Shown: in pieces, positions 3,848 to 23,810 of the stretch
How positions within the stretch are numbered: the first letter of the stretch is position 1
How the letters are laid out: the number at the start of each line of letters is the position of its first letter
Origin: Chloroflexota bacterium
GTDB lineage: Bacteria > Chloroflexota > Limnocylindria > P2-11E
DNA length: 34,969 nucleotides
Direction: 5' to 3'
Assembly (NCBI GenBank): GCA_027310565.1
Contig: DAIDAP010000013.1
Span: 1 to 34,969, forward strand
The notes under the pieces: model-generated
What the model was told of the DNA's origin: nothing
The model's database searches: none
Seen by the model: the letters and a program-made list of their open reading frames with translations, nothing else
Program-made: the position numbers and the translations under genes

Positions 3848-3994
3848 GCCGTATGTATATAGACCAGAGCGACTCGGTGCTGTACCGCCGGCGCGCCCGG
3901 CCACTCCTCCCACGGAGTATTGCGAACGCCAGAAAGTTTACTCCCGCATTCGCTAACCTTGCCCGCGAAACGACGGTTCCCGGGCGAGGTGCAA

Positions 3995-5311: not shown

Positions 5312-6367
5312 ATGTCCGTGCCCTCAAGAGCGCTGACGAAGGCGTATTCAACGAAGCTCGGCGCTGCGTACGTGGGCAATGGTCTCGATCTTCTTCGATC
5401 GTTGAGGCCAGCGAGTGTCGCCTTGGTGCTGACCTCCCCGCCGTTCGCGCTTACGCGGCCCAAAGCCTACGGTAACGAGGGCATCGATGACTACATCAAG
5501 TGGTTCATGCCATTCTCTCGCCTCATTTACCGCGTTCTCAAGCCGAATGGGAGCTTCGTTCTCGACCTTGGTGGTTCATGGGTACCGGGTCGGCCGATTC
5601 GAAACGTCTATCAGTTTCAGCTTCTACTGGAGCTCGTCCAGGCTCGTTCTCATCGCTTTGTGTTGGCCGAGGAGTTCTATTGGCTCAATCGGGCTAGATT
5701 ACCCGGGCCGATCGAGTGGGTGAACGTGCAGCGAATCCGCGTCACCGATGCGGTGAATGTGGTTTGGTGGTTGGCAAAGACCGACCGACCTTTCGCGGAT
5801 AACACCGCGGTGTTGCGCCCCTACTCGCCAAGCCAGCTCAAACTCTTCGAGACGGGCTACAACTCAGGTGCGCGCCCGTCAGAGTGGAATATCGGCCGCA
5901 CAAGCTTCTCACGCGACAACGGCGGCAGCATCCCGTCTAATTTCATACGTGGCGACGACGACGGTGAGGCCGAATACGGCTACCCCGCGACACTCGCGCC
6001 ACAACCGACAAACCTCTTGGCGGGGTCTAACACTGCGTCACGCGACCCATACTTGAAGGCTTGCCGGGAACTCGGGCTAACGATCCACCCGGCACGGTTT
6101 CCAGTTCACTTCGCCAGCTTCTTTGTCCGATTCTTGACGCGCGAGAACGACGTCGTTGTGGATCCGTTCGCTGGCAGCAACACGACGGGCTGGGCCGCGC
6201 AACTGAGCGGGCGTCGGTGGCGCGCGGCCGACCTGGACCGGGACTACGTCGCCGGATCGGCGGCACGTTTCGGATTGGATCCAACACTTGTCCTACGCAA
6301 GAGTCAGGCAAGTCCTGGCGTCAGGTTGACTCCGACGTCCGCGAGGCCATTGCGAAGAGGTCGGTAA
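5312..6367 (+). CDS. PvuII-family DNA N4-cytosine methyltransferase
   Basis: 351 aa, complete. Motif order is that of beta-class amino-methyltransferases: catalytic motif IV TSPPFALTRPKAYGN near residues 41-55, then YRVLKPNGSFVLDLGGSW, the target-recognition region with AEEFYWLNRARLPGP, and finally the SAM-binding motif I DPFAGSNTTG near residues 291-300. The SPPF form and the almost linear match to the M.PvuII layout (IHPARFPVHFASFFVRFLT before motif I) indicate an m4C enzyme, possibly for CAGCTG; the target is inference. No PvuII-like endonuclease or Xre-type C-protein lies beside it. Its 3' end overlaps the convergent 123-aa gene by 47 nt. It may be an orphan, or may provide self-marking for the neighbouring helicase/ATPase operon. 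Confidence 0.88.
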   Translation: MSVPSRALTKAYSTKLGAAYVGNGLDLLRSLRPASVALVLTSPPFALTRPKAYGNEGIDDYIKWFMPFSRLIYRVLKPNGSFVLDLGGSWVPGRPIRNVYQFQLLLELVQARSHRFVLAEEFYWLNRARLPGPIEWVNVQRIRVTDAVNVVWWLAKTDRPFADNTAVLRPYSPSQLKLFETGYNSGARPSEWNIGRTSFSRDNGGSIPSNFIRGDDDGEAEYGYPATLAPQPTNLLAGSNTASRDPYLKACRELGLTIHPARFPVHFASFFVRFLTRENDVVVDPFAGSNTTGWAAQLSGRRWRAADLDRDYVAGSAARFGLDPTLVLRKSQASPGVRLTPTSARPLRRGR

Positions 6368-6692
6368 ACCGAAGCTGATCGTTATCGTGAAGTCTGCCAA
6401 TCTCCGCTACTCCCGCTTCGGCCAGTCGCTCCGCAATTTCGTAGGGGGTCCCAGGCTCGTTCGGGTATAGCTCAAGGATCACGTTGCGTATCGTGCCGTC
6501 TCCATCGAACGAGCCCACGTTCAGGAATGTCTTCATTCGGATGCCGCGCTCAGCAATGACTCCCGATGCGATAGCGAGTCCGATTCCCAAGCGAAAGCCG
6601 TCACGCATTTCGCCGATCAGCCCTTCCTCCTTCAAACTTTGAAGGATCTCCTGACTGCGATCTGAGTATCGAATGGTCATGTTCTCGTCCAT
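6321..6692 (-). CDS. 123-aa protein, last gene of helicase/DndD-like operon
   Basis: Its ATG overlaps the ATPase stop (TGATG), so it is coupled to it; a GTG one codon earlier is an alternative. The N-terminal part, MTIRYSDRSQEILQSLKEEG then FRLGIGLAIASGVI, suggests a helical DNA-binding fold with loose resemblance to DndE (a short protein with a Ser-rich start, an LK motif and an R-x-G/A helix). The second half has DGDGTIRNVILELYP and a final helical part, ending AMASRTSEST. I do not recognise it with certainty. As a small subunit encoded next to an SMC-like ATPase it probably binds DNA or the ATPase. Its 3' end overlaps the convergent methyltransferase gene. Confidence 0.7.
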   Translation of the reverse strand: MDENMTIRYSDRSQEILQSLKEEGLIGEMRDGFRLGIGLAIASGVIAERGIRMKTFLNVGSFDGDGTIRNVILELYPNEPGTPYEIAERLAEAGVAEIGRLHDNDQLRFTDLFAMASRTSEST

Positions 6693-8662
6693 CACTCGAG
6701 TACCACGATCTCACTCTCGTTTGAGCTCTTCTTCACGATGCTGTACTCGCGCTCGATCTTTGTGCGCACGCTAGCGAGGTCCCTGCCGCGATCGACCTCA
6801 CCTGCATGGACTAAGAGTGTCACCTGATCCGCCATGGTGGGTACGAACTTCAGGATGTTCTCTCGGTGCGTCGGATCGAGTCGGCCAAATGGCGTATCCA
6901 TAACGATAGGACCTCGTCGAACGGCATTCTTGTTGAGTGCCCCAATGAGGCTCAGCGCGACAATCTGCTCCGCGCCGGCGGCGCGAACGGGCACGTCGTC
7001 GCCGTCCGCGTCCACGATCGTCAGTGCGTATGTCGGACTGATTCGTAGTCCTCGGTACGACTTGTCTGTGGTCAGTTGTCTGAAGATCGTCGTCGCGTCG
7101 TGTTCGACCGTGCTGCGGAGGCGATCCCGCAGTTGCGAGATCGCCGCTTGGAACACGGCGATGAGCTGGTCGTAGGCCGCGACTTCGCGGTTGAGGCGCT
7201 CGAGCTCGGGACCGCCAAACTTCGAGATCTTCTGCCGGTTGGCCGCAGCAGCTGCGTGTTTCTCGGCCATCTCGAGGACTCGCGCCTTTATCGTCTCCTC
7301 AAGCACTCCGATTTCTTTGGTTATCTCGTCGTATTCCCGCCGGCTCCTCGCAATCTCATCATCCGCGTGATCGCGAAGCCTCTCCTCTATCTCCTCCCTC
7401 TTAAGGGTGAGGTCGGCACGCGCGGTACGAATCTCGAGGAGCCGTCGTTCGATGTGTCGAATCGCTTCAGGCGCACCCGTCCCACGAACACTCGTAAGTC
7501 GCCGAACCGATTGCAGCGATTCCGCCTGGTCGCCAACGGCATCCGGGACGGCTCGAAGCTCGGCTTCGAGCGAGCTGACCTCTTCGGACCACCTCCGGTT
7601 GCCTCTGTCCAGGCTGGAGCCGCAGACGGGGCAGTTCCCCTCCTCGCGAATCCTTGTTAGCTGTCTAAGGCGCGTTCGAAGCTCTGCCGCCTTCCGGGCA
7701 GTATCGGCGTTCCTCTCGAGTGATTGCTGTACGTCATGAAGCCGCGCACTTAGTCGCGGTACGACTAGGTCCTTCCATGCGTCCACGAGCCGGGCGCGAC
7801 GCTCCTCGCTGAGGTCCTGCTGTTCAAGGTCGAGCTGAGTAAGCTGCGCGCGAATCAGATCCAGGCGATCCATCTCGCTCTCGATTGCCGCCGTAAGGCG
7901 CAGCCGTTCCGCAAGCTGCGACTGCCGATACTGCAGATCCTCGCGCTGCTTCTGCAGATCGCGTATGTCTGCCTCAATCTCCTCGATCTCGCGATCTAGA
8001 TTCGCTGCAATCGTGGCAAACACCTTTGCCGCCTGGTCCTTCCGGGCAAGGTTTTGCTGTCGCCTCGCAGCTTCGCGGTGGTTTATCCGCAGATCCGCGA
8101 TCGCGTTCGAGAGTGCGGGCACGCCGAGGATGTCCTCGATAGAGTCACGAATCGTCGCCGCCTGCTCGTCCTTGTCGGCGAGCAGACGCTCGTATTCGTC
8201 CAGCTGCTCTCCATCAAATAGGAAGAAGCGCGCTATCCGCTCAGGCAGGAGCTGATTGATCTCGGACGGGCGAGCATCGACGTGGAATCCGTCTCGTTGG
8301 AGGAAGATCTTCTCATCGAAGTCACTGTCCACGCTCGGCTCTCCAGGGCCGCGCGGCTGAATCGCCCGCGTCAGTTCGTACTCAGTGCCGTTCTGCTGCA
8401 TGGCAAGCGTCACGGACATCTTCCAGTCGCCGCGTTTTGCCGCCTCCTTGTTGACGAGGTGTTTGCGCCGGATGTCCTGGCCAATTCGGTCCTTGACGGT
8501 CCCGTACAGCGCCCAACGGATGGCGTTGAAGAGGCTGGTCTTCCCACTCATGTTTGCGCCATGCACAACAACGATGGGCTTGGCGCCGTCGAGCCTCACA
8601 TCCTGGTGCCCGCGGTAAGGCCCGAAGTTCACGAGACCGATTCGTCTAAGACTTGTCGGCAT
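6692..8662 (-). CDS. DndD/SMC-like ABC ATPase with zinc hook
   Basis: 656 aa, about the size of DndD. In order: Walker A GANMSGKT (35-42); the DndD-type FFLFDGE (146-152); a long coiled coil (about 195-335); a Rad50-like hook CPVC (344-347); a second coiled coil to about 495; an ABC signature region AAGAEQIVALSLIGALN; and Walker B with D-loop in VMDTPFGRLDPTHREN (about 587-602). Such proteins dimerise through the hook and use ATP to clamp or scan DNA. The gene overlaps the 75-aa gene by 17 nt and the 123-aa gene by 1-4 nt, so stoichiometric expression is likely. It is not evidence of phosphorothioation: no DndB/C or cysteine desulfurase is present. Related ATPases serve in Lamassu-like, Dnd and ABC three-component defence systems. 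Confidence 0.88.
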   Translation of the reverse strand: MPTSLRRIGLVNFGPYRGHQDVRLDGAKPIVVVHGANMSGKTSLFNAIRWALYGTVKDRIGQDIRRKHLVNKEAAKRGDWKMSVTLAMQQNGTEYELTRAIQPRGPGEPSVDSDFDEKIFLQRDGFHVDARPSEINQLLPERIARFFLFDGEQLDEYERLLADKDEQAATIRDSIEDILGVPALSNAIADLRINHREAARRQQNLARKDQAAKVFATIAANLDREIEEIEADIRDLQKQREDLQYRQSQLAERLRLTAAIESEMDRLDLIRAQLTQLDLEQQDLSEERRARLVDAWKDLVVPRLSARLHDVQQSLERNADTARKAAELRTRLRQLTRIREEGNCPVCGSSLDRGNRRWSEEVSSLEAELRAVPDAVGDQAESLQSVRRLTSVRGTGAPEAIRHIERRLLEIRTARADLTLKREEIEERLRDHADDEIARSRREYDEITKEIGVLEETIKARVLEMAEKHAAAAANRQKISKFGGPELERLNREVAAYDQLIAVFQAAISQLRDRLRSTVEHDATTIFRQLTTDKSYRGLRISPTYALTIVDADGDDVPVRAAGAEQIVALSLIGALNKNAVRRGPIVMDTPFGRLDPTHRENILKFVPTMADQVTLLVHAGEVDRGRDLASVRTKIEREYSIVKKSSNESEIVVLE

Positions 8663-8873
8663 CGGTACCTCCGCGCTCTTGAGTAGTTAGCTCGACGAAA
8701 GGCTGCACAATCTCTCGTATGCGTGATGGTGCTTCCGGACGACCTGCATCAAACTGGACTCGCTCTTCGATCCGATAGATCTTCTCAACAAGATCCGCGG
8801 ACAGGCCCGGTGCTAGGGCACCCCGCTGCTCCTGAAGAACCACTAGCGCCCGAGCCGCAACATCCTCAGTCAC
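8646..8873 (-). CDS. 75-aa small subunit between helicase and ATPase genes
   Basis: Starts with GTG overlapping the helicase stop (GTGACTGA, 8 nt) and ends 17 nt inside the ATPase gene. The protein is all-helical by eye: VAARALVVLQEQRG, GLSADLVEKIYRIEERVQF, then APSRIREIVQPFVEL. It has no cysteines and no catalytic motif. The double overlap shows it is a genuine coupled gene and suggests a linker or middle component that connects the helicase-nuclease to the ATPase. Family not recognised. Confidence 0.7.
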   Translation of the reverse strand: MTEDVAARALVVLQEQRGALAPGLSADLVEKIYRIEERVQFDAGRPEAPSRIREIVQPFVELTTQERGGTDADKS

Positions 8874-10932
8874 TGCTCGCTCCCTCGTCCTCCATCATGT
8901 TCGGCTCCCAACCCTCGCGGGCACGCTCCTCATCAAGCGGCACGGCGTACTCCTGCGCGATCCGCCTGATGCGGAAGCGTACGGCCGTGTTGGAGGCATC
9001 ATCGGCGAACCTCGCCGCCCTCGCGATCTCGCTCCCAAGCATTGAGAACCCTGCGGGCTCTACGACGCCCGCCGGCGGCAGCACGATGGCATCGTGGATA
9101 TCGGCGGAGAATTTGCGCGGACTTGACCGGAGAACCCGCCCGCGCCGTTGAATGAACTCGCGCGGATTGCGTGACGAGGCGAGGACTAGTGCGTGATCAG
9201 CGTCAGGAATGTCGACGCCCTCATCGAGACATCTGACGGCAACGAGACATCCCCCAACCGCGCCGAAGTGCGCAAGGGTAGCGGCGCGATCACCTGGCAT
9301 CTCAGCGTAATAGGGCTGAGCCGGAACCGCTGCGCATCTAACCGCATCGACTACCTGGGACAGCTGAGACACCGAGTCGCAGTAAACCAGCCAGCGATGC
9401 CCCGACACATATTCGGCTTGCAGGACTTCTTGCGCCAGCGGCACTTTGCGCTCTGCCTGCTTCACAACTGCGGCACGCTGAATCATCAGCAGTTCAAGGC
9501 GCGCGCGTACCGACTCGTCGAGCATAGCTTCGTCCCCACCGAGAAGACGCGCGATCTCGATCGTAAGAGACTGCCACCGATGAGCTTCAGCCTCAGTGAG
9601 GTGAACAGGATGAATGAAGTAGCGATACGGGCAGATGCGTCCGACTGCGATGCCGTCGCGAATACTGAAGTTCGACTCAATCGCCCCTCGAAAGTACTCG
9701 TCGATGACCTGAGTCCCTGCGGGATCGCCGGCTCGATTGGCGGTAGCGCTAAGTCCGAGGCGGGCACCAGCAGCGACTAACGCCTTGCGGTGTACCGGAC
9801 TGCCTGCGCGGTGCACTTCGTCCACGACGAGCATCAGGTGATCGCCCTCGAGCACGCGCCGGCGGAACTCGTTGGTGCTCGCTGTCTGCACAGTGGCAAT
9901 CGTGACTCGCGGGGGACCTTCACGGCGAGTGAAGCCCTCAACGACGTCGGGCTGCCGCCAGAGATCATTGCCAGCGCCAACCAACAGCCGCTGAAGCGTT
10001 ACCTCGCCGACCTCCATCCGCAGTTCCCTATCCCACTGTTGCAGGAGGTCCTTACTCGGCACGATGATCATCGCTGGTCCTGCAACATGAATCCAATTGT
10101 CGATAGCGCGAATCGCCGTAAGTGTCTTCCCTGAGGACGTCGCGTGGGTCAGTATTCCCGTCCTTCCACGGCGTTCCCAGGCATCAAGGGCCTCCAGCTG
10201 ATGTCTCTGCAGCGTCCTCCGCCGCGGCGCGCCTTCGAGCGAGCGAAAGGCGGCTTCGACACCTGCCGAATTCGCCAGCGGCATCAGTACGGTGCGCGCA
10301 ACATCCGGGAAGTCAACCGTCATCACGTTGGGCTCGACGCCACGCCACAGTCGTTCGAAATAGGCGGCATGTTCCCGGACGCGGCCGGAGTCCTGAGACC
10401 AGGATGTAAAGACTTCAACTGACTCGTGGTTTCCTTTGGGATCCCACGCGAAGGCCGTCTCGTTCGCGGAACCAACAAAACTTACGCACTCGGTGCCGTC
10501 GCTGGCAACACCCACCTTGTCATGGAATATGCCGCGTGCACCGGGCCGAAAGGCCAACTTGATCTCCAGAGCGCGCACAGCAACCAAGGTCGCGAGGAAC
10601 TCAAGCGCCGGCTTCGACGACGCGTCCTGAATCAAGCTCTGTAGCGAGTTCAGGATCAGAGACTCGAAGTCGTCTCGGCGGTCGTATCCCAGCTGTATCG
10701 CCGCGCGGTCTTCCGGGTCCAGCTCCGGCGAGCAGATAAGTTGAATCCGGTTTCCACGCGCTGCAAACTCGGCAATTGGCTCCCGACACAGGTCGATGAG
10801 TGAAGAACGAAAGTACCCGACGGCGCGATCGTAGGTCCTCGCCCGGAGAAGGAGCGGCGCAAAGAACGAGGTACTTAGATCGTCGCGACTTGTCGAATAC
10901 CGCGGCTTGAAGGAGAAGTCTCTAAGCGGCAT
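8866..10932 (-). CDS. PLD-family nuclease fused to SF2 helicase
   Basis: 688 aa from ATG 10932 (GGAAGAGG just upstream); an in-frame ATG at 11004 would add 24 poorly conserved residues and overlap the divergent gene. Residues 1-200 form a phospholipase-D/HKD-type nuclease half: FFAPLLLRARTYDRAVGYF, then HDK at 137-139 with FVGSANET, the usual HxK...GSxN pattern. Residues 235-640 are a superfamily 2 helicase: RRTLQRHQLEAL (Q-like), Walker A ATSSGKT (264-270), DEVH box (371-374), LSATANR (motif III), DEGVDIP (motif V) and QRRGRVLR (motif VI, about 595-602). It is the first gene of a four-gene overlapping operon. The architecture fits ATP-driven translocation with DNA cleavage by the PLD part, as in DISARM- or type-I-like restriction; that role is inference. 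Confidence 0.88.
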   Translation of the reverse strand: MPLRDFSFKPRYSTSRDDLSTSFFAPLLLRARTYDRAVGYFRSSLIDLCREPIAEFAARGNRIQLICSPELDPEDRAAIQLGYDRRDDFESLILNSLQSLIQDASSKPALEFLATLVAVRALEIKLAFRPGARGIFHDKVGVASDGTECVSFVGSANETAFAWDPKGNHESVEVFTSWSQDSGRVREHAAYFERLWRGVEPNVMTVDFPDVARTVLMPLANSAGVEAAFRSLEGAPRRRTLQRHQLEALDAWERRGRTGILTHATSSGKTLTAIRAIDNWIHVAGPAMIIVPSKDLLQQWDRELRMEVGEVTLQRLLVGAGNDLWRQPDVVEGFTRREGPPRVTIATVQTASTNEFRRRVLEGDHLMLVVDEVHRAGSPVHRKALVAAGARLGLSATANRAGDPAGTQVIDEYFRGAIESNFSIRDGIAVGRICPYRYFIHPVHLTEAEAHRWQSLTIEIARLLGGDEAMLDESVRARLELLMIQRAAVVKQAERKVPLAQEVLQAEYVSGHRWLVYCDSVSQLSQVVDAVRCAAVPAQPYYAEMPGDRAATLAHFGAVGGCLVAVRCLDEGVDIPDADHALVLASSRNPREFIQRRGRVLRSSPRKFSADIHDAIVLPPAGVVEPAGFSMLGSEIARAARFADDASNTAVRFRIRRIAQEYAVPLDEERAREGWEPNMMEDEGASSD

Positions 10933-10953
10933 GCCCTCTTCCGCGTTAAGCGA

Positions 10954-11916
10954 ATGGCCACCGATACTTATGCCGTGCACTATACCGACGAGGAGGCCCG
11001 CCACCGTCCCGAGGACTCAACCCTGCGCCGCCAGGCTGCGAAAATCCTCCGACGTAGCGGGCCGACATTGACTGGCGACATCCTATTAGCCCTGCACCGC
11101 GAGCCTCGATGGCGCTCTCTCAAAATCTCCGACCTCGACAGCGCTTTGCGTGGGGCGCCACTCTGGTTCACGAGAATCGGCGAACGCTGGTCCCTCACGG
11201 CGGCGGCAGTGCCAGCAGATGAGCGCGTAATTGAGGCCGCAGCTTGGGAGATCCTTCGGACTCGCGGCCCGCTCCGCGCCTCCGAGCTGGCACGGAGCCT
11301 TGCCAACTTCGGCTTCAGCAAGGGATACATCAGTTTGACCTTGTCGCAGTCAACTCTCCTCGCACGACTGGACGATGGCACGTACTGCGGGGTGGGACAA
11401 GCCAGTTCCCGTCCAAGTCAACAGATTGGGCGAGCCGACGCCCTCTCGGTCCACGCAAGACAGGTCGCTCCCGCAGGTGCCGGCGTGCCAGCAGCCGAGC
11501 CAAGCAGCCTGCGCAGAGGCGATGTGTTGACAACGCGGCGCGAAATCAGCAAGAGGTTTGGAGGCACCCCGTTTCGCGGCATTAGCTACAAGACGGGCGG
11601 CGACTGGGTAATTGTCATATCCAGCGAGCACGGCAGATGGTACGGCTACAAGGACGGCTGGGTCGACGACGACGACGACGAGGCGCGGTTTCTGTATTCG
11701 GGCGAGTGGCGAGGTTGTGGTGACATGTCGATGACCGGCGGCAATGCTGCGGTCAGGGATCGCAGCGGACGCATCTTCCTGTTCGTCAAGGACGCAGGGC
11801 TCTACCGATTCCGAGGCAGATTCTCAGTCGAGGAGGTCCGGCGGCAAGGGATGACTTGCCCGCATTGTGCCAGGACGCATGCCGGCATTCGGTTCTTGCT
11901 TAAACGCTTGTGCTAG
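10954..11916 (+). CDS. Double winged-helix plus ScoMcrA-type SRA-like domain protein
   Basis: 320 aa. The N-terminal half carries two helix-turn-helix units (RRQAAKILRRSGPTLTGDIL and later AAWEILRTRGPLRASELARS). After a proline/alanine linker, residues from about 187 match the SRA-like domain of ScoMcrA-type HNH enzymes: RGDVLTTRREISKRFGGTPF, then GRWYGYKDGW, FLYSGEWRGCGDM and GNAAVRDRSGRIFLFV. In those enzymes this domain reads modified cytosine and an HNH nuclease follows; here there is no HNH, only a short CPHCARTH tail. It may be a reader or regulator without cleavage. It starts only 21 bp from the divergent helicase start and has no strong SD. Its stop abuts the rpoC relic. Confidence 0.72.
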   Translation: MATDTYAVHYTDEEARHRPEDSTLRRQAAKILRRSGPTLTGDILLALHREPRWRSLKISDLDSALRGAPLWFTRIGERWSLTAAAVPADERVIEAAAWEILRTRGPLRASELARSLANFGFSKGYISLTLSQSTLLARLDDGTYCGVGQASSRPSQQIGRADALSVHARQVAPAGAGVPAAEPSSLRRGDVLTTRREISKRFGGTPFRGISYKTGGDWVIVISSEHGRWYGYKDGWVDDDDDEARFLYSGEWRGCGDMSMTGGNAAVRDRSGRIFLFVKDAGLYRFRGRFSVEEVRRQGMTCPHCARTHAGIRFLLKRLC

Positions 11917-13214: not shown

Positions 13215-14327
13215 TCAGCGCTTCGGGACGACCGCCGTCGCGCGATAGGTGCGCGCCCGTCCGCGGCCCACGATGACGAGCGATCCGCGCTCGACCAGCG
13301 CGCGCAGGTCGGCCGCCGCCGTGAGCTGCGCGACACCGCAGCGCTCGGCCGCCTCCCGGCTCGTCCACACGTGGCCGGCCGCGGCCTCGCGGGCCAGCAG
13401 CGCGCGCCGCGCCTCGGCGTCCATCACGCGCGGCGCCGCCTCCTGCGAGAGCGCCGGCTCGCCGAGCGCGCGCTCGTCGAGGAGCGGCATCGCGTAGGGC
13501 TGGTCCGCGCGCGCACACGCCGCGAGCCAGCGGTACGCCCAGTCCTCGGCGAGCTGCCGCGTCTCGGCGAACATCCACGCGACGCGCGGATGAGACACCT
13601 GAAGCGCCGCGAGCAGGTCGGCGAGCCAGCCCGCGCGCACGTTCCCGGCGGACGCCGCCTTCACCGCGTCGGAGAGGCGGCCCTCGACCACGAGCGCGGC
13701 GTGCGGCGTCGCCGAGAGGTCCGCGAGCGCGAGGGCGAGCTGCCCGCTCACCGCCGAGCTCGCGAGGTCGCTCGGTGTCTTGCGCTCGACCGCCGCGACC
13801 ACGGCATCGTCACGGAGCAGCGCGTAGTCGCCGGCGGGGAGCTTGCGGCGGCTCACCGACACGCCGCGGCCCGAGAAGCGCCAGGGGTAGCGCTCGGCCA
13901 CGTCGACCGCGACGTGGAGGGTCTCGCGGAACGAGCGCGCGAGCGGGACGCGGATGCCCGGACGCGCCCGCGCCATCGAGGCCGGCGAGCGCCAGAAGAT
14001 GAGCGTGCGCCCCGCCTTCTTCGTCCACACGAAGAGCGAGCGGCGGTTCTGACGGCGGCGGAGCACCAGATGAACGGCCGGCCCGACGCGCCAGCACGCC
14101 TCGACCGGCACCTCCTCGATGATCTCGGCCTCCGCCGGCCACTCGCGCAGCTGGTAGCAGAACACGTCGCCGCTGCGCGGCCAGGTCTCGCGCGCCGCGA
14201 GGTAGATGCGGCCCTCGCCGCGGACGGGCAGACGCAGCACGTACGGCAGCCGGCCGCCGCGCGTCGGATCGCGCCCGACCCAGAAGGTGGTGAGGCTATC
14301 GAGCCCCGTGGCGGCGGCCGCGCTCAT
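13215..14327 (-). CDS. ERCC4-type nuclease with C-terminal winged helix
   Basis: 370 aa from ATG 14327; a GTG at 14348 would add seven residues. The middle carries the XPF/ERCC4 nuclease signature GDYALLRDD...VVAAVERKTPSDLAS (GDY and ERKxxxD), whose acidic residues bind metal in structure-specific endonucleases. The N-terminal third (TTFWVGRDPTRGGRLPYVLR onward) is of unknown function. The C-terminal ~50 residues form a winged helix: WTSREAAERCGVAQLTAAAD followed by LRALVERGSLVIVGRGRART. It is not a full XPF helicase and not MUS81. Possible roles are repair or recombination of branched DNA, or defence. High G+C suggests host-type DNA. A fragmentary inverted copy lies just downstream. Confidence 0.82.
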   Translation of the reverse strand: MSAAAATGLDSLTTFWVGRDPTRGGRLPYVLRLPVRGEGRIYLAARETWPRSGDVFCYQLREWPAEAEIIEEVPVEACWRVGPAVHLVLRRRQNRRSLFVWTKKAGRTLIFWRSPASMARARPGIRVPLARSFRETLHVAVDVAERYPWRFSGRGVSVSRRKLPAGDYALLRDDAVVAAVERKTPSDLASSAVSGQLALALADLSATPHAALVVEGRLSDAVKAASAGNVRAGWLADLLAALQVSHPRVAWMFAETRQLAEDWAYRWLAACARADQPYAMPLLDERALGEPALSQEAAPRVMDAEARRALLAREAAAGHVWTSREAAERCGVAQLTAAADLRALVERGSLVIVGRGRARTYRATAVVPKR

Positions 14328-14401
14328 CCTTCGAGGTCGATGATGCACGCCCGCGGCGCGGTCGTTCCTCGTGACGGTGGGTACCGAGGCCGGACGCCGG
14401 G

Positions 14402-17400
14402 CTAGCGCTGCACCTCGATCGCGTCGGTGTAGACCAGGCGCCGATCACCCGGCGTGGCGCTGAAGCGCTCGAACTCCGCGATCACGACGCGGAAGCGGTC
14501 GCCCTGCGCCTTGGGCAGCGTGAGCTGCCCCTGCCACAGCGTCGTCCCGCTCGGGCCCGCGGACGGCGTGAGCGCGACGGTCGACGCGGGCACCAGCTCC
14601 CAGGCGAGCTCGGCGGCCTTGTTCGGCTCGGTGTTGGCGCGGCGGCGCTCGAGGCTGACCTCGACCGTGCTCGGCCCGCCGGCGCCGACGAGCTTGGAGT
14701 AGCTGCGCCCGGACACCGTCAGGCTCAGCGTGTCGGACTTCTTCGGATCGCGCGTGAGGCTCGCGCTGCGGTCCGCGGCCAGCTGGACGAAGTCGGCGAG
14801 CTGCACCCGCGAGAGGTGCGCGCCATTCACCGAGTGCGGCTGGTAGCGCGCGAACGCGAGACGCACGAACGGCGTGTACGAGGGGCCGGCGTCGATCTCG
14901 AGGTCGCAGTACCAGAGCTTCCGCTCGGCGTCGTAGCCGACCTGGTGCCCGGCGACGTGCAGCGTCGTCACGCCGGGGAGCTCCTCGAGCGAGAGCCCGC
15001 TCGTCTTGCTCGCCGTGGCCATGGTGAACGCGCCGACGGTCGGCGCGGGCGTCGTCGCTCCCGACGAGTAGAGCGGGTCCAGGCCCCAGTCGGAGACGAA
15101 CGGCTTGGCGGCGTCCGGCGGCGGGGTCGCGCCGCTCCAGATGACCACCCCGAGGAGCTCGCCGTCGCCGGAGGAGAACCACGGCCGCTCGACGTACGCG
15201 CGAAGGCCCCCGCCGCGGCGCTCGCTCGTGAAGAGCGTGCCGTCCCGGCTCGCGGTCGAGGACCACCCGAACGTCGGGACCAGGTAGAGCACCTTCGGCG
15301 CGGCGGGCCGCGCGGTCGAGGGGATGTCGAGGTCGGTCGGCGCCGCGGTGCGCCGCACCACCGGCGGCGCGAGGAAGGTGATGCTCACGCTCTTGCCGTC
15401 GAGGGACGCGAGCGGCGTGAGCGTGCCTTTCGCGTAGTCCATCGTGTAGTCGGTGCCGCGGACGTAGCGCGTCGAGCGGTCGTCGGCGACCACCGCCTCG
15501 GAGCCCTCGACGACGCCGCCCCAGTCGATGCCGTCGTCCTTCACCGGCGCGTTGAGCTGCACCGCCCTGTACGCCCTGAGCGCCTCCCGGTCCTTGCGCT
15601 CGGCGAAGTACTCGGCGAAGCGGCTCGTCGCGTCCGCCGCGTAGGAGACACGGCGGTACCTGGTGTCGTGGAACTCGTGGCGGCCGCTCACGTGGAGGGC
15701 CGTCTCCTGCGCCGGGGTCGCCGCGAGCGGGACGTTGAAGATGAACGGCCGGGCGCTCCCCTGGGTCTCGATCGGGCCGGGTTGCGCGAGCGAGTCGATC
15801 GTCTCGTTCCAGGTCGCGAGGAGATCGAGCCGCCCGGTGCTCTTGCGGGAGAGCTCCATCGCGGCGTCGTCGAGCAGGGCGAACGTGTCGCCGAGCGCGC
15901 GCGTCGCGCCGAGGCCGACGAAGCGCGGCCGCAGGAGCGGCTGGCGCACCGCGTGGACGAGCGTGAGCGTGCGGTACGGCGTGACCATCCAGTGCACGCC
16001 GTCGGCGACCTGTTGCCGGAACGTCGGCACGGACGCGGGCTCGTTCGCCTCCATCCAGCGCAGGAGCGCCATGCGGTCGACGTCGCCCAGGTCCGGGTCG
16101 AGGTACGACGAGAGGCGCACCGTCGCGATGTCGCCCTTGCCGAGCCGCACCTCGAGCCGGCGCGGCGCGGCGCGGTACGCCGGCGCGCCGGAGCCCTCGC
16201 GCAGCACGAGATCGAACGCGCGGATGTCCGGCCAACCCTTCGCGCCCTGCGAGCCGAACGCGACGCGCGTCGCGCCCGATGCGCCGGGCAGGCCGCGCCA
16301 GACCGTGCCGCGCGCGAGGCCGTCGGGGAGGTACGGGAGCTTCCCGTCCTGCTGCTTCACGAAGAAGACGCCGGGGTGATGCGGGTCCTCCGTCCCGACG
16401 TCGACCCATGCTCCGCCGTCGCGGTCCTCCAGGAGCCGGTACGCGTCGCGATCGAACCCGCCCGGCGTGTCGAAGAGGCCGGTCGTCTCGACCGTGGGCT
16501 CGGCCGCCTTGGGCGGCGCGATGTGCCGGACCGCCTCCTGCTCGATGTTGCCGTCGTAGTTGCTGCGGATGACGACGCGCGCGACGGCGTCGCCCTCACC
16601 GAGGGGCCCGTCGAGCACGACCTCGGGCGACGCGACCGGCTCGAAGCGGCCGAACGTCACCGCGGCGGTCGCGTTCGTGAGGCCGGCGAGCGCCTCGCGC
16701 GGCGTGCGGTTGCCGGCGAGGTCGACGGCGCGCGCGCGCAGGCGGTACGTCTCGCCGTGGCGCAGGCGCGGGAGCGAGCCGGGCTTCGCCTTGAAGTCCA
16801 CCTGCAGTTCGAACTGCGTCGTCGGCGTGTTCTGGGGCGCGACGGGGTTGCCGTCGGCGTCGATGGTCTTGCCCGGGCGCGGCGCGGCGAGGCTCCAGCC
16901 CCACCAGTTGAAGAGCGTCTCGCCGAGCTTGGTGTCGGTGGACGAGCCGTCGGCGGGGCCGGCGAGGCCCATGGAGACGAAGCCCTCGTCCTGCACCGCG
17001 GGGAGCGACGTGCCGCCGAAGCGGTACGTGCCGACGCGCTCGCAGAGCGAGCGCCAGGCGCCGCTGGTCGCGTCATGAACGTCGATCGCGTAGCCGCGCA
17101 CGAGGTCCTCGGCGTCGAGCGTGACGCTGCCGCCCTCGAGCGCGGTGTTGTTCGTCGCCGAGGCGGCGAGGTTCGCCGTGACCGCCGCGGCGCGGTCGAC
17201 GCGCGCGACCGCGAGCCCGGCGGTCGAGAGCGCAGGGATCGCGTACTGGCCCGGCGTGTCGTCGGTCTTGTAGACCTTCTCGGTCGTATCGGCCTGCCCC
17301 GGGTAGTTCGTCGTGTCGGCCGGGTCGAACGTCGCGCGCACGATCGTCTCGGCGAAGCGCAGCGTCTTCAGCACCGCGCCGTCCTGGTTCACCTGCACGA

Positions 17401-18289
17401 GCTCGTACGCGCTGCCGTCGCCGAGCGGGAGCATGCCGAGCCCGTCGAGCGAGAGCTCCGGGTTCACGCCGCGTGGCGTCGCGAAGAACGCGCTCGCGCC
17501 CACGAAGCAGCGCGTGAGGAGCGCCGGGAGCGTCGGCGCGCCGGGCCACGACGCGAGCACCTGCACCGTCGTCGCGCCGAGACCGCCGGGGTGCGCGACC
17601 TCGAGGTCGTGCACGATGCCGAGCATGCGCATGAGCACCGGGTAGCGGCCGAGCGCCGCGAGCATCTGGTGGAACTCGATGTCCGGCGGCGCCGGGTCGA
17701 TGCGGTTGTTCGGGTTGAACGGCTTGTGGAAGTCCTCGACCTCCTTGAAGTTCAGGTAGTCGGTCGAGGGGCCGGCGAAGATCGACTTGATGATGGGGCC
17801 GGGCGGCGGGGGCGGCGGCGGGATGAACGGCGCCGCCAGGTCGTAGAAGGGCCCGTTCACGTCCAGGAGCTCGTCGACGGTGGGGTACTCCTCGGGATTG
17901 TTCTTCGCGAAGTACGTGTACACGGTCTGGAGCTTCTGGTGGACGGCCTGCACCTTGTACGACTTGATCGTCGTCTGCGTGAGCGCGGTCTCGAAGGTGC
18001 GGGGGCGCAGGTACGAGGTCGGCGCGAAGAGCGCCTGCCACAGATCCGAGCGCGGCGCGTCGCCGACGCGCGTCGCGGCGATCGGGCTCCCGCCTCCGAA
18101 CTGCGCCTGGAACGTGAGCGCGGTGGCGGGCCAGTCGAGCCAGTCGGGGAACTCGGAGAGGGCGACCTGCGCGCTCGCGCCGTCGTCGGTCCAGAGGCGC
18201 GGCGAGACGAAGACCGAGAGGCGCAGCTTGCCGCTCGGCGCGACGCCGTTCGGCAGCGCGGTGAAGGTGATCGTCTGTGTCTTCGCCAT
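14402..18289 (-). CDS. 1295-aa protein of unknown function, partner of the Tat protein
   Basis: A very large protein with no signal peptide: MAKTQTITFTALPNGV, then GKLRLSVFVSPRL. A proline run (seven or more P) sits near residues 155-165. In the middle are beta-rich segments such as ETYRLRARAVDLAGNRTP, reminiscent of an immunoglobulin/FnIII-like sandwich, and DLVRGYAIDVHDATSGAWRS. No catalytic motif is recognisable. It begins 15 nt after the Tat-signal gene, with GGGGGAG 4 nt upstream of the ATG, so the two are co-transcribed and their products may act together. I faintly recall similar paired giant hypotheticals in other soil bacteria, but cannot name a family. A structural, coat or adhesin role is a guess. 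Confidence 0.85.
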   Translation of the reverse strand: MAKTQTITFTALPNGVAPSGKLRLSVFVSPRLWTDDGASAQVALSEFPDWLDWPATALTFQAQFGGGSPIAATRVGDAPRSDLWQALFAPTSYLRPRTFETALTQTTIKSYKVQAVHQKLQTVYTYFAKNNPEEYPTVDELLDVNGPFYDLAAPFIPPPPPPPGPIIKSIFAGPSTDYLNFKEVEDFHKPFNPNNRIDPAPPDIEFHQMLAALGRYPVLMRMLGIVHDLEVAHPGGLGATTVQVLASWPGAPTLPALLTRCFVGASAFFATPRGVNPELSLDGLGMLPLGDGSAYELVQVNQDGAVLKTLRFAETIVRATFDPADTTNYPGQADTTEKVYKTDDTPGQYAIPALSTAGLAVARVDRAAAVTANLAASATNNTALEGGSVTLDAEDLVRGYAIDVHDATSGAWRSLCERVGTYRFGGTSLPAVQDEGFVSMGLAGPADGSSTDTKLGETLFNWWGWSLAAPRPGKTIDADGNPVAPQNTPTTQFELQVDFKAKPGSLPRLRHGETYRLRARAVDLAGNRTPREALAGLTNATAAVTFGRFEPVASPEVVLDGPLGEGDAVARVVIRSNYDGNIEQEAVRHIAPPKAAEPTVETTGLFDTPGGFDRDAYRLLEDRDGGAWVDVGTEDPHHPGVFFVKQQDGKLPYLPDGLARGTVWRGLPGASGATRVAFGSQGAKGWPDIRAFDLVLREGSGAPAYRAAPRRLEVRLGKGDIATVRLSSYLDPDLGDVDRMALLRWMEANEPASVPTFRQQVADGVHWMVTPYRTLTLVHAVRQPLLRPRFVGLGATRALGDTFALLDDAAMELSRKSTGRLDLLATWNETIDSLAQPGPIETQGSARPFIFNVPLAATPAQETALHVSGRHEFHDTRYRRVSYAADATSRFAEYFAERKDREALRAYRAVQLNAPVKDDGIDWGGVVEGSEAVVADDRSTRYVRGTDYTMDYAKGTLTPLASLDGKSVSITFLAPPVVRRTAAPTDLDIPSTARPAAPKVLYLVPTFGWSSTASRDGTLFTSERRGGGLRAYVERPWFSSGDGELLGVVIWSGATPPPDAAKPFVSDWGLDPLYSSGATTPAPTVGAFTMATASKTSGLSLEELPGVTTLHVAGHQVGYDAERKLWYCDLEIDAGPSYTPFVRLAFARYQPHSVNGAHLSRVQLADFVQLAADRSASLTRDPKKSDTLSLTVSGRSYSKLVGAGGPSTVEVSLERRRANTEPNKAAELAWELVPASTVALTPSAGPSGTTLWQGQLTLPKAQGDRFRVVIAEFERFSATPGDRRLVYTDAIEVQR

Positions 18290-18304
18290 TGCTCTCCCCC
18301 TCCC

Positions 18305-21300
18305 TTACGCCGCGAACGCCGCGGTGTACTCGTCCCAGTCGGCCTCGCTCAGCAGGTCGGTGAAGCTGAGACCGCCGCCGGACGTCTTCGCGGCGAGGCT
18401 CGCCCGCCGCGGCGCCATGCCGGACGCCGCGACGACGCCGAACGGCGCCATGAGCGACGAGGTCGACGACGGGCCGGCGATGCGCCGCTCGATGTTGAAG
18501 CTGTAGGACGCGCTGAACATGAGCACGTCGACCTCGACGGTGAGGGTCGCCTGCCCCCACAGCTCGTTGGTCTCGAACTGGAACTTCATGCCGAGGTAGA
18601 GCTCGATGCTCACGTTGATGATGCCGAGGACGTTCAGGCTGCCGCCGAGGCGCACGTACGCGGTGAGGCTCGCCTCGTCCGTCGCGGGCGGCGTCTTGCG
18701 CTCGAGCTTGTAGTAGATGCCGGCGAGCGCGTGGATCTCCCCGGACGCGACGCCCAGGTCGAGCGCGAGCGACGCGCCCACCTCGATCGACGCCTCGAGG
18801 ACCTCGAGGCCGTCCAGGCCGAGCGCGATCGCGAAGAACCCGCCGCCCCCGAGGCCGATGACGGTGACGAGGAACGGGTCCTGGCGCTCGCTGAAGTTGA
18901 AGCGGGCGCGCGCGGGCTTCCCGGTGAACGGGATGGTGAGCGCCGCGCCGAAGACGATGTTCTGGATGGTGAGGACGCCGACGCCGACGGTCGGGATGGG
19001 CAGGTTGAAGCCCGCCGTGACCGACGTGGGCGCGAGGTCGATGTACGGGCCGGTGCCGCCGAACTTCAGGAAGTCCTTCAGCGTGTTCACGAACTTGAGG
19101 ACGCCCTCGAAGGTGACCTCGCGGATGTCGACGTCGACGTTCGTCTTGCTGCCGGTCTTGGACGTGAACTTCAGCTGGTTGAACGCGAGGCCGATGAGCG
19201 GCGCCGGCGTCCCCAGGAGGAGGACGCGGAACCGGCGCAGGTCGCCGACGATCTCGTACGTCGGCGCGCCCGGCGGGAGGATCGGCGCGGTGAACGTCGC
19301 GTCGATCGTCATCGTCGCGCTGTCCGTCGTCGGGTCGAAGATCCCCAGCGGGTCGGGGTGCAGGCCGGGGACGAAGTTGAAGGTCGTGACGAGCTTCTCC
19401 GGCGGTCGCGTCGTGTCGCCGTTCGGGTAGATGACGTTCGAGACGAGCTTGGGCACCTGCGGGCCGCTCGCGAAGCCGAGGACCTCGTCGATGATGTCCT
19501 TGAGCAGGATGCCGCCGAGGATCTTCGCGCCGTCGAAGAACGTGGACGGGTCGAACTTCGGCGGGATCGCGGCGACGTCGCCGCCGACCGGGCCGAGCTT
19601 GCGCGAGAGGCCGCCGATCTTCATGTCCGGGCTCACCAGGCCGCCCGAGCGGTCGACCGCCGGGAGGCTCGGGCCGGTGAACGAGAGGTCGACCTTGTCC
19701 TTGAGCTTCGCGAAGATCTCGCTCCCGTCGTACCCGCTCGTCACGTACGTCGGGTGCGGCTGGATGACGGTCTTCGCGAGCGAGCCGCCCTGGACCGCCT
19801 CGACGGCGTCGAGCCGCACCTCGGCCTCGGTCCAGACCGGGTAGAACGGGGCGAACCCCTTCGGCACCGCGCCGTCGGGGTCGGCCGCGCTGAAGGTGAG
19901 GTTCTTCGTCTCGACCGCGGTGTCGCCGGGTTTCCCGTCGGCCGCGCCGTCGTTCTTCGTGGAGCGCGCCATGCCGACCTTTTGTCCCTTGAGGTCGGCG
20001 GTCTTCATGGCCGCGGTGAAGCTCGGGGAGCCGCTCACGGCGTCGTAGTCGTCCACCACCTTCGCGATGTCGGTCTCGGTGAACGGCGGGATCACCGCGA
20101 CATCCGGGTACGACACGAAGACGAGCGGGAGCGTGAACTCGCTCGCCTGCCCGTCGCGGTCGGTGCCGACGATGCTGAACGGGAGCGCACCGCCCTCGAC
20201 GACGGGGATGAACGCGTGGTCGCCGTACGTCTCGAACGACCAGCTCGGGTCGGCGGGGTCCCCCAGGGTCGGCGTGACGAGCGTCTTGAGCTCGACCGTC
20301 TTGTACGGCATCTGCCGGCCGGCGTTCGGCTGCGGCGCCGTCTCGGGGTAGGTGAGGCGCGGCTGGCGCACGACGATGAAGAAGCGCTGGCGCAGGTACG
20401 CGCCGCGCGCCGTGCCGGCGGGGATCGGCTGGAGCTTGCGCTCGGTGACCTTGATGAGCGCCGCGGGGTGGCCGAACGGCAGGAGCCAGCCGAGGTAGAC
20501 GACGCGGACGTACTGGTCGCGCGCCATCGTCGCGACGTGGCGCCACTCGCCGAGGTTGTACCCCGTCGGCGGCTCGGTGAAGTAGCCGCGCGTGTTCTGC
20601 CACGCGCCGAGCGCGCTGAGCATGAGGCGCTCGACCTGGATGGCGCGCGGAAGGTAGTCGTCGGGGAGCGCGAAGTCGGAGGAGAGGTGCACGAGGCGCC
20701 AGCGGTCCTGCGGCGTGAGGGACATGCGGAACGGGTCCGCGCCGGCCGGCGGTGTGTCGTAATCGAAGCCGTCCATCCACACCGCGCGCACCGCACGCTG
20801 TGCGGCGTCGCTCTCGTCGGCGACGTAGCGCGTCGGGTCGCTCGCCGAGGGCTTGCGCACCGCCAGACGCGTGTGCCACAGCTCGGTGCGTCCGTTGCGC
20901 ACGACCGGCTCCGAGGCGTGGGCCCAGGCGGACCCGCCGTGCGGCGAGAGGACGAGACGCCACGGGGTCTCGACGCGCGTCTCGGTGTCGTCCGGCTCGC
21001 GGATCACCGGGACGGACGCGGGGTCCGCGAGCGGCGGGAGCGCGGCCGGGACGACGCTGGGCTCGAGCTGGGCGAGATCGAGGAGCGCCGCGAGCGTGAA
21101 CGGGATGGACGCGGTGGCGGCGGGGACCTTGAAGGCGAGGCGGGTCGGGCCGGCGAGGAGCGCCTGGACGTCGCCCGGGTCCGCGAGCGGCTCGCCGCTG
21201 GTGCCGCTGTCGTCGGTCTCGAGGAAGGCCTGCTCGCCGACGTTCTGCGGCGCGTGGTCACTTCCGTAGCCGAGCGTGGCGACGACGTAGGCCGGCTGGG

Positions 21301-21577
21301 CCGCGACCTGCCGTACGAGGTCGCCCTTGTTGTCGCGGACGAGGTTGTACAGGGAGAAGCGCAGCGCGAGCATGTCCTCCCGCCGCAGGACCGAGGCGGT
21401 GAGCGACGGGGTCGCCGCGAGCAGCGCCTTCGCCTCGGCGGCGGTCGGCTTCCACGCGAACCGGGTGACGACGTCGCCGGCGACGACGCTGAAGGTGGCG
21501 GTGGCGCCGGTCTTCTTGAGGAACTCCCGCCGGGTGATCAGCCCACGCCTACTCGCCCGCTTCGATGAGCGTGCCAT
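18305..21577 (-). CDS. 1090-aa Tat-secreted protein of unknown function
   Basis: The ATG at 21577 follows GGGGAGGG by 5 nt; a longer frame to 21658 lacks support and would bury the twin-arginine motif. The N-terminus has KRASRRGLITRREFLKKTG (twin arginine at residues 16-17) followed by a short hydrophobic stretch, ATATFSVVAGDVV: a Tat signal, so the protein is exported folded or anchored. The remainder is beta-rich with segments like LPRAIQVERLMLSALGAWQN, EWRHVATMARDQYVRVVYLG and PFGHPAALIKVTERK, and a C-terminal part from about 690 on with repeated F-x-V-x-L strands. No enzyme motif seen. It has its own promoter and is first in a two-gene unit with the 1295-aa protein. Confidence 0.87.
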   Translation of the reverse strand: MARSSKRASRRGLITRREFLKKTGATATFSVVAGDVVTRFAWKPTAAEAKALLAATPSLTASVLRREDMLALRFSLYNLVRDNKGDLVRQVAAQPAYVVATLGYGSDHAPQNVGEQAFLETDDSGTSGEPLADPGDVQALLAGPTRLAFKVPAATASIPFTLAALLDLAQLEPSVVPAALPPLADPASVPVIREPDDTETRVETPWRLVLSPHGGSAWAHASEPVVRNGRTELWHTRLAVRKPSASDPTRYVADESDAAQRAVRAVWMDGFDYDTPPAGADPFRMSLTPQDRWRLVHLSSDFALPDDYLPRAIQVERLMLSALGAWQNTRGYFTEPPTGYNLGEWRHVATMARDQYVRVVYLGWLLPFGHPAALIKVTERKLQPIPAGTARGAYLRQRFFIVVRQPRLTYPETAPQPNAGRQMPYKTVELKTLVTPTLGDPADPSWSFETYGDHAFIPVVEGGALPFSIVGTDRDGQASEFTLPLVFVSYPDVAVIPPFTETDIAKVVDDYDAVSGSPSFTAAMKTADLKGQKVGMARSTKNDGAADGKPGDTAVETKNLTFSAADPDGAVPKGFAPFYPVWTEAEVRLDAVEAVQGGSLAKTVIQPHPTYVTSGYDGSEIFAKLKDKVDLSFTGPSLPAVDRSGGLVSPDMKIGGLSRKLGPVGGDVAAIPPKFDPSTFFDGAKILGGILLKDIIDEVLGFASGPQVPKLVSNVIYPNGDTTRPPEKLVTTFNFVPGLHPDPLGIFDPTTDSATMTIDATFTAPILPPGAPTYEIVGDLRRFRVLLLGTPAPLIGLAFNQLKFTSKTGSKTNVDVDIREVTFEGVLKFVNTLKDFLKFGGTGPYIDLAPTSVTAGFNLPIPTVGVGVLTIQNIVFGAALTIPFTGKPARARFNFSERQDPFLVTVIGLGGGGFFAIALGLDGLEVLEASIEVGASLALDLGVASGEIHALAGIYYKLERKTPPATDEASLTAYVRLGGSLNVLGIINVSIELYLGMKFQFETNELWGQATLTVEVDVLMFSASYSFNIERRIAGPSSTSSLMAPFGVVAASGMAPRRASLAAKTSGGGLSFTDLLSEADWDEYTAAFAA

Positions 21578-21656: not shown

Positions 21657-21684
21657 ACGCTACCCCCTTAACCGAACCTGTCAA
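21657..21684 (-). promoter_or_regulatory. Sigma70-type promoter of the Tat-protein operon
   Basis: On the minus strand a consensus -35 TTGACA (21679-21684) is followed after 16 bp by TAGCGT (21657-21662) as -10. Transcription would start near 21649, about 70 nt before the ATG at 21577. It separates the two giant-protein genes from the ArsA unit upstream. Confidence 0.6.
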
Positions 21685-21780: not shown

Positions 21781-22782
21781 CTACGCGGTCGCCGGCTCCG
21801 CGAAGAGCTTCTCCCCCGCCTTGTCGAGCATCGCCACGCCGCGCACGTCGGAGTCGAAGAGCGGGATGACCGCGCGCACCTGGCCCGGGAAGCGCTCGGC
21901 GATCTCGCGCAGGTACCCCTCCTGCATCGCGACGCGGTTGCGCACGAACTCGCTCTCGCTCCGGGCCTCGGCCGGGTCGATGACCATGTTCACCACGACC
22001 CCGCCGACCGGGATGCCGAAGTCGGTGAACCAGTCGATGAAGCGGCGGATGACGGCGATGGGGAGCGCCTCGGGGAGCGTGACGAAGAAGAACGCGGTCT
22101 TCGCCGGATCGGTGAGCAGCTCGCGCGCGTGCTCGATGCGCTTGCGGAAGTCGACGAGGTAGCCCATGAGCGGGTCCTCCTCCTTCTTCTTCGTGAAGGA
22201 GAGGGTCTCGCGCAGCGACTGCGCCTCCTGGCGCGACTTCACCATCTTCTGCACCCAGAGGCCGTACACCTTGCTCATCCCGAGCAGCCGGCGTGCGTTC
22301 GCCGTCGGGGCGGTGTCGAACACGTAGACGTCGTACTCGCCCTTGAACATGAGGTCGACCATGTTCTCGAACATCGCCGACTCCTCGAACGCCGGGTTGG
22401 TCGTCGCCGCCTCGACGAACTCGTCGGCCTTGGTGCTGATCTCGGCGAACTTCAGGAACCACTGGATCTTGTCGCGGATGTCGCGCTTGCTGCGCTCGAT
22501 CGCCTCGCGCGTGTCGATCTCGAGCGCGAAAAGGCCGGGCACGCCCTCGACCGGGGTGTGCCTGCCGAACACGTCCTGCCCGAGCAGCCCGGAGAGGCTG
22601 TGCACCGGGTTCGTGCTCGCCAGCAGCACGCGCTTGCCCTGCCTGGCGAGCTGGACCGCGCTGACGCCGGCGAGGACCGTCTTCCCCACGCCGCCCTTCC
22701 CGCCGAAGAAGACGTAGCGCAGGCCGGGGTGCTCGCGCAGGAAGCCGGTGAGCGGCGTCGCGGCGAGCGGGCCGTCGTCCAT
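21781..22782 (-). CDS. ArsA/Get3-like ATPase, copy 1 (catalytic Asp replaced)
   Basis: 333 aa. Deviant Walker A FFGGKGGVGKT (about residues 25-35), switch-I-like STNPVHSLSGLLG and switch-II-like DTAPTANARRLL place it in the ArsA/Get3 family of dimeric ATPases, which deliver tail-anchored proteins or drive ArsB pumps. In Get3/ArsA switch I reads STDPAHS, where D is the catalytic residue; here it is N. The protein has no cysteine, so it can have neither the metalloid site of ArsA nor the Zn clasp of Get3. Its ATG overlaps the stop of the second ArsA gene (TGATG), arguing for a heterodimer. No arsR, arsB or arsC nearby, so arsenic resistance is unlikely. Confidence 0.88.
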   Translation of the reverse strand: MDDGPLAATPLTGFLREHPGLRYVFFGGKGGVGKTVLAGVSAVQLARQGKRVLLASTNPVHSLSGLLGQDVFGRHTPVEGVPGLFALEIDTREAIERSKRDIRDKIQWFLKFAEISTKADEFVEAATTNPAFEESAMFENMVDLMFKGEYDVYVFDTAPTANARRLLGMSKVYGLWVQKMVKSRQEAQSLRETLSFTKKKEEDPLMGYLVDFRKRIEHARELLTDPAKTAFFFVTLPEALPIAVIRRFIDWFTDFGIPVGGVVVNMVIDPAEARSESEFVRNRVAMQEGYLREIAERFPGQVRAVIPLFDSDVRGVAMLDKAGEKLFAEPATA

Positions 22783-23810
22783 CAGGACTTCCCGTACATG
22801 AGCTCGGCGACGCGGGCGATCATGTCGAGCCCGGTGACGTCGCGCTCGAGCTCGGGCACGCGCGCGAGGACGCTGCGGCCGAGGTCGCGCTCGATCGCCT
22901 CGAGCTCCCCGCGCTGCATCTCGATGCGGTTGCGCAGGTAGCTCGGCGCGCTCGCGAGGAGCTCGCGCGGGAGCACGCGGTTCACGATGTACCCGGCGAT
23001 CGGGACGTCGAAGCGCGCGAACATCCCCGCCGCCTTCCGCGTGTCGAGGAGGATCATCTGCTCCGGCACGAGCACGAAGAAGAACGCGGTCCGCGTGCGG
23101 TCGGTGAGGATCTGCGACGCCGCGTTGATCCGCGTGCGGATGTACTGGAGCTCGCCGAGGATCTGGTCCTCCTCGGTCTCCTTCTTTCGGCGCATGCGCG
23201 CGGCCATCTCCTCGTACTCGCGCATCTCCTCACGCAGGTGCGTGATCTTCCCGATCCACTCGTCGTACACCTTCGCCATCGAGAGGTAGTAGAGCGCGTG
23301 GCCGAGCGGCACGAGGTCGTAGATGTAGTAGTCGTATTCGCCCGTGGCGAGGATGTCGACGACCGAGTCGAAGATCGCCGACTCCTCCATCGCCGGCTCG
23401 GCCGACGCCGCGGCGATGTAGTCCTCGATCTCCGCCGGCACCGCGTCGAGCCCGTACATGTCGAGGATCTTCTGGCGGACCTGCTGCTGGTATGCGCGGA
23501 TGTGCCGGTCGGCGTCGATCTCCTGGGCCCAGAGGTTCTCCATGACCTGGACGGGGCCCCGGCCGAAGATGTCCTGCTGGAAGATGTCGGTGAGGCTCGC
23601 CTGCGGATCGACGCTGAACACGAGCACCCGCTTGCCCTGCCGCGCGAGCCAGTATCCGGTCGCGGCGGAGAAGGTCGTCTTCCCGAGGCCGCCCTTGCCG
23701 CCGAACATGACGTAGCGGCGCTCGGGGTGCTTGCGGAAGAAATCGGCGAGCGACTCCTCGGGCCCCGCGAGCGTCGCGGGCGCCGAGGGCGGCGGCTCTA
23801 CCCGCGCCAT
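22782..23810 (-). CDS. ArsA/Get3-like ATPase, copy 2
   Basis: 342 aa with deviant Walker A MFGGKGGLGKTT (about 36-47), FSVDPQASLTDIF as switch I (Asp kept, but DPQ as in MinD/NifH-type proteins) and YDLVPLGHALYYL where Get3 has DTAPTGHTLRLL. It is clearly a paralogue of the next gene: both share the FFFV-LPE strand (TAFFFVLVPEQM against TAFFFVTLPEAL) and the C-terminal YLRNRIEMQ / FVRNRVAMQ segment. No cysteines. It follows the 97-aa gene after 18 nt and is coupled to copy 1. The two switch regions have diverged in complementary ways, which suggests one active and one structural site in a mixed dimer; that is inference. Confidence 0.88.
   Translation of the reverse strand: MARVEPPPSAPATLAGPEESLADFFRKHPERRYVMFGGKGGLGKTTFSAATGYWLARQGKRVLVFSVDPQASLTDIFQQDIFGRGPVQVMENLWAQEIDADRHIRAYQQQVRQKILDMYGLDAVPAEIEDYIAAASAEPAMEESAIFDSVVDILATGEYDYYIYDLVPLGHALYYLSMAKVYDEWIGKITHLREEMREYEEMAARMRRKKETEEDQILGELQYIRTRINAASQILTDRTRTAFFFVLVPEQMILLDTRKAAGMFARFDVPIAGYIVNRVLPRELLASAPSYLRNRIEMQRGELEAIERDLGRSVLARVPELERDVTGLDMIARVAELMYGKS

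Follow-up and report, generated by a model that had tools for sequence, protein, structure and literature searches.

What do two very large, adjacent open reading frames (ORFs) in a Chloroflexota bacterium encode, and do their products act together? They lie on a contig of 34,969 nt, analysed here over its whole length (the window). An original prediction, made from sequence, described two giant ORFs 15 nt apart with a promoter of their own and no recognisable catalytic domain, one product carrying a Tat signal and the other none, and proposed that the pair may form a complex exported together or a surface structure; assignment to a known enzyme or structural family was named beforehand as its refutation. 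Both ORFs were found where the prediction placed them (Table 1). They are encoded on the minus strand and span 7176 bp in all, and the purine-rich GGGAGGGGGAG in the gap is the ribosome-binding sequence ahead of the ATG of B. Homologues of A and B with the same arrangement of two ORFs are spread over more than a dozen phyla (30-49% identity), so the ORFs are not a product of chance. The promoter was not confirmed: a consensus scan 5' of A gave none, and the weak candidate read by eye, about 80 nt 5' of the ATG of A, has a good -35 element but a poor -10 element.

Table 1. Coordinates of the A-B genes and of their features within the window
Feature	Position	Strand	Description
Protein A	18305-21577	(-)	1090 aa, 116.5 kDa; all-beta, Tat-type N-terminus
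Protein B	14402-18289	(-)	1295 aa, 139.4 kDa; string of Ig/FN3-like beta-sandwiches, without signal peptide
A residues 1-50, putative Tat signal	21428-21577	(-)	TRREFLK, RR at residues 16-17; model mostly of low confidence (disordered)
A residues 755-1034, long antiparallel beta-meander	18476-19315	(-)	Most strands with one hydrophobic face in the predicted model
A residues 1072-1090, conserved C-terminal helix	18308-18364	(-)	Follows a disordered linker; candidate docking tail
A-B intergenic gap, 15 nt	18290-18304	(-)	Contains ribosome-binding sequence for B
Possible promoter 5' of A	21657-21684	(-)	TTGACA-16 nt-TAGCGT; weak, read by eye

We searched for known families. A and B of the window had zero matches in Pfam and PADLOC, weak scores at most against PHROGs and NCBIfam, and no significant match among PDB sequences; no match passed a curated cut-off for family membership. 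About 30 relatives of A were assigned to no family in Pfam or NCBIfam, and among 30 relatives of B the generic Ig repeat Big_3_5 (Pfam) was found in three, plus one borderline NCBIfam match. These five collections bear out the claim that no domain is recognisable, and the search for a known family was negative. Phage structural proteins were rejected as candidates, the PHROG scores being sub-significant and B having no match in the phage collection; weak tail-tube matches resemble generic Ig folds, and comparison of A with viral structures gave no convincing match. A defence system was also rejected, PADLOC being negative for both proteins. The open-access literature searched contained nothing on the pair. 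By the curated-family and literature searches, what is new here is the protein families and their pairing.

The search for the same pair in other genomes, proposed with the original prediction, was carried out with two peptide patterns on one genome per species (84,980). It returned 196 loci encoding A, 80 of which were kept; with one IMG/VR locus these form the examined set of 81. The kept loci span Acidobacteriota, Aminicenantota, Actinomycetota, Armatimonadota/Zipacnadia, Bacteroidota, Chlorobiota, Chloroflexota, Cyanobacteriota, Ignavibacteriota, Nitrospirota, Planctomycetota, Pseudomonadota, Thermodesulfobacteriota and Thermomicrobiota, among others. B lay directly 3' of A at 77 of 81 loci, which represent more than a dozen phyla. 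Two of the four exceptions (L084, L104) are at contig ends and two (L058, L069) have no adjacent B; all four genomes encode B elsewhere. L058 and L069 come from near-identical lineages, the only ones seen with A away from B, and each has two B genes elsewhere. No third gene beside the pair was widely conserved across the examined loci. Plasmid-borne pairs occur in Streptomyces, Rhizobium, Cupriavidus and Diaphorobacter, with annotated genes labelled 'hypothetical protein', and an IMG/VR contig (L039) carries the pair near prophage genes, probably as host DNA. A-B is thus a widespread, nearly always linked and previously undescribed two-gene module. Since the genes stand side by side in a fixed order in so many phyla, their products almost certainly work together.

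We then compared the divergence of the two proteins. Distance matrices of A and B were strongly correlated over 52 loci (r = 0.91; Mantel 0 of 2000; calculated without control for the species tree), and the nearest neighbour was identical for A and B in 40 of them. On the A tree the phylum label had to change 28 times, against a minimum of 13 and a mean of 42 for shuffled labels, and there were cross-phylum sisters such as Caballeronia and Nitrospira with 100% SH-aLRT. This mixing of phyla is consistent with joint transfer of the two genes; misbinned contigs and paralogues could be the source of part of it. We consider it likely that A and B are the two subunits of a single large complex rich in beta structure, and that their genes make up a self-contained module that spreads horizontally. 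The idea that the pair forms a complex has good, if indirect, support: the genes nearly always occur together, their order is fixed and their divergence is correlated, which suggests that A and B bind each other. That more than a dozen phyla have kept this 7-kb unit intact, apparently passing it between them, makes a benefit to its carriers very likely, and naming it as one module opens interaction, localisation and phenotype to testing in culturable hosts.

The genome of the window has a second, diverged A-B pair (contig C10) in the same order, beside lepA and 35-41% identical. A was absent from all 40 related genomes searched, including four of the same genus, and present in 12 of 400 sampled genomes of the phylum Chloroflexota, counting the window's own; the A proteins of three of the phylum genomes (L008-L010) look identical to those of the Dehalococcoidia-labelled L040-L041. 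A genome of the same genus (G001) has rpoB, rpoC, rpsL, rpsG and fusA in one cluster, where rpoC is 2.3 kb away from rpsL. In the window the distance between rpoC and rpsL is about 25 kb (3251-28253) with A-B inside, and the stretch between them looks like an insertion in the rpoBC-rpsL region. A contaminant contig was rejected as an explanation because rpoB and rpoC are 88% and 87% identical to those of same-genus genomes; the rpoB value indicates that the contig is genuine.

The rpoC-rpsL stretch also carries CstA, two ArsA/Get3 ATPases, an ERCC4-type nuclease and a Pbe-like defence island. The last (5312-11004; lower GC, 61%) comprises PbeA-like (8866-11004) and PbeC-like (6692-8662) genes and a DNA methyltransferase (5312-6367). 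The ERCC4-domain nuclease (13215-14348), just 3' of B, was unmatched in the defence-model library. Near rpsL lies a RelA/SpoT-domain gene (3920-4810, plus strand), possibly a small alarmone synthetase. The two ArsA/Get3-type ATPases are in tandem just upstream of A (21781-23810), with an overlapping start/stop junction, and seem to be part of the island, since same-genus genomes have no close homologues of them. They share strand and variable region with A-B and are adjacent to it, which could indicate a functional tie. We regard this as very unlikely: a gap of 203 nt precedes A, there is no such ATPase beside the second A-B copy of the same genome, and none recurs beside the pair at other loci, which led us to reject a general link.

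Where would an A-B complex act? The N-terminus of A, MARSSKRASRRGLITRREFLKKTGATATFSVVAGDVVTRFA, matches the Tat consensus S/T-R-R-x-F-L-K at residues 15-21. The RR pair was conserved in six of six members of the clade of A (including the paralogue and L040-L043) at about 40-50% identity, and TatC is encoded in the same genome (222 bits). The predicted Tat signal on A is supported by consensus and conservation, though the NCBIfam Tat model TIGR01409 scored 11.5 bits, under its cut-off of 16.7. By a strict rule, 31 of 66 A proteins had a Tat-type motif together with a hydrophobic stretch; this count is approximate, as the rule overlooks real-looking cases (A of the window, L040) and may admit false ones (L085, motif at residue 285). 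A possible Sec-like segment was detected by a home-made rule in two of the 66, the N-terminus of A in the window being of the RR type. None of 54 B proteins had an N-terminal signal, in agreement with the prediction for B, and in most of them about ten residues at most separate the start codon from the conserved core. Because roughly half of the A relatives have no recognisable signal, export is not a defining property of the family.

We also inspected recurrent neighbours of the pair. They begin with a Sec-type signal, as judged by eye, at seven loci with an RR-type A (L071, L072, L074, L080; L046, L068, L079), and have none, where the start was readable, at six loci with a signal-less A (L053, L076, L094; L083, L096, L099); these thirteen loci represent four gene families and are not independent cases. 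At L071, L072, L074 and L080 the neighbour, directly 3' of A-B, belongs to an actinobacterial family of about 400 aa and is a possible third component there. The Ig/FN3-like folds described below and the Sec-secreted neighbours agree with a role outside the cytoplasm in some lineages. Overall, an extracytoplasmic site of A-B has moderate support in this organism and in other Tat-bearing lineages.

The original prediction went further, proposing possible hitch-hiker export, in which B would fold against A while still in the cytoplasm and the two would cross the membrane together via Tat. A signal was seen on A and never on B, the genome encodes TatC, and Tat accepts folded hetero-oligomers such as the 135-kDa PaoABC, which is exported by hitch-hiking (PMC4273604). 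Like A-B, the Tat hitch-hikers HybOC and PaoABC have an RR-type signal on one partner and are encoded in one operon. Unlike them, A-B has no recognised cofactor or redox domain and a summed mass of 256 kDa, far beyond the reported range of Tat cargo (up to about 150 kDa; PMC6708511), and many signal-less A relatives still keep B. The placement of the signal agrees with this route, size and signal-less relatives speak against it, and B could instead remain cytosolic. We consider this stronger form of the complex model possible but doubtful. If B does leave bound to A, the pair would test the size limit of folded Tat cargo and, pre-assembled, would be one of the largest known.

Alternatively, A may be an uncleaved membrane protein for which the RR segment is merely an anchor, with the pair acting on the cytoplasmic side. 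Some RR segments run on without a clear cleavage site, and the signal-less half of the family would in that case consist of soluble cytosolic proteins. We find this rather unlikely, as RR-type motifs recur in many phyla, the neighbours at the seven RR-bearing loci have Sec signals, and bacterial Ig-like domains, common in proteins outside the cell, occur in the three B relatives mentioned above. Under the preferred model of a single A-B complex, the RR peptide, in this organism and roughly every second lineage, would take A, possibly with B bound to it, through Tat across the cytoplasmic membrane to its outer side. In signal-less lineages the complex would stay inside or leave by another route.

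Structures were predicted with AlphaFold2 on family alignments for A and for residues 1-1200 of B, with mean pLDDT of 82.6 and 88.2, respectively. The B model is mainly beta with some helices within the first 400 residues and consists of a string of Ig/FN3-like domains. Its best matches were generic Ig/FN3 tandems (Z < 8), and a specific known fold for the B model taken as a whole was rejected on these grounds. The string resembles the beta-sandwiches of fibronectin, contactins and GbpA, and Big_3_5 is recognised in a few B relatives; B differs from these proteins in having no sequence relation to them, no signal peptide and an obligate partner, A.

The A model is almost all beta. In its C-terminal meander most strands are strongly amphipathic, with a mean hydropathy difference between faces of up to 5.2 compared with an average of 1.7 for 16 other A strands. 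The best fold match of the meander was CymA (Z 13.3, rmsd 5.3 Å over 187 residues), and residues 840-1038 resemble the long antiparallel amphipathic meanders of CymA, OmpG and LptD. The meander might accordingly form an outer-membrane beta-barrel and A-B a surface or secretion apparatus, such barrels being the top fold matches. Against this, Foldseek gave them E-values of only about 3e-4 and TM-scores near 0.1. A has no sequence similarity to these barrels, is present in phyla that are mostly monoderm and has a linker and a conserved helix after the meander. The Sec signal peptide typical of such barrels is not seen in A of the window, which has an RR-type N-terminus. Chloroflexota and Actinomycetota mostly have no classical outer membrane. 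As the meander is kept in these two phyla and in signal-less A proteins, we judge a barrel in the outer membrane improbable, and it is likelier that the hydrophobic face seen in the predicted model is directed inward, as a trough or an interface with B.

Foldseek also returned lipid carriers as weak matches of A (6i7s, E 2.7e-3; 6ekt, E 2e-2). The microsomal triglyceride transfer protein and P47/TULIP proteins share with A a single hydrophobic face; A has no sequence relation to them and the scores are weak. More speculatively, within a complex of A and B the C-terminal meander may form a trough or barrel, either to accommodate a hydrophobic ligand or to pack on B, and the conserved W..Y..AFA helix (W1081, Y1084, A1087, F1088, A1089) may serve as a docking tail. 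The most far-reaching version, which we consider a long shot, is that A-B is pre-assembled at about 256 kDa and exported by Tat as the product of a phylum-crossing cassette, the hydrophobic trough of A being capped by B and binding or moving hydrophobic molecules at the cell surface.

Finally, one locus has a related arrangement. An Agrobacterium plasmid (L038, 6377-21076) encodes a distant A relative of 3039 aa and, after it, two ORFs of which the second has a weak match to B; this suggests a deeper superfamily in Rhizobiales.
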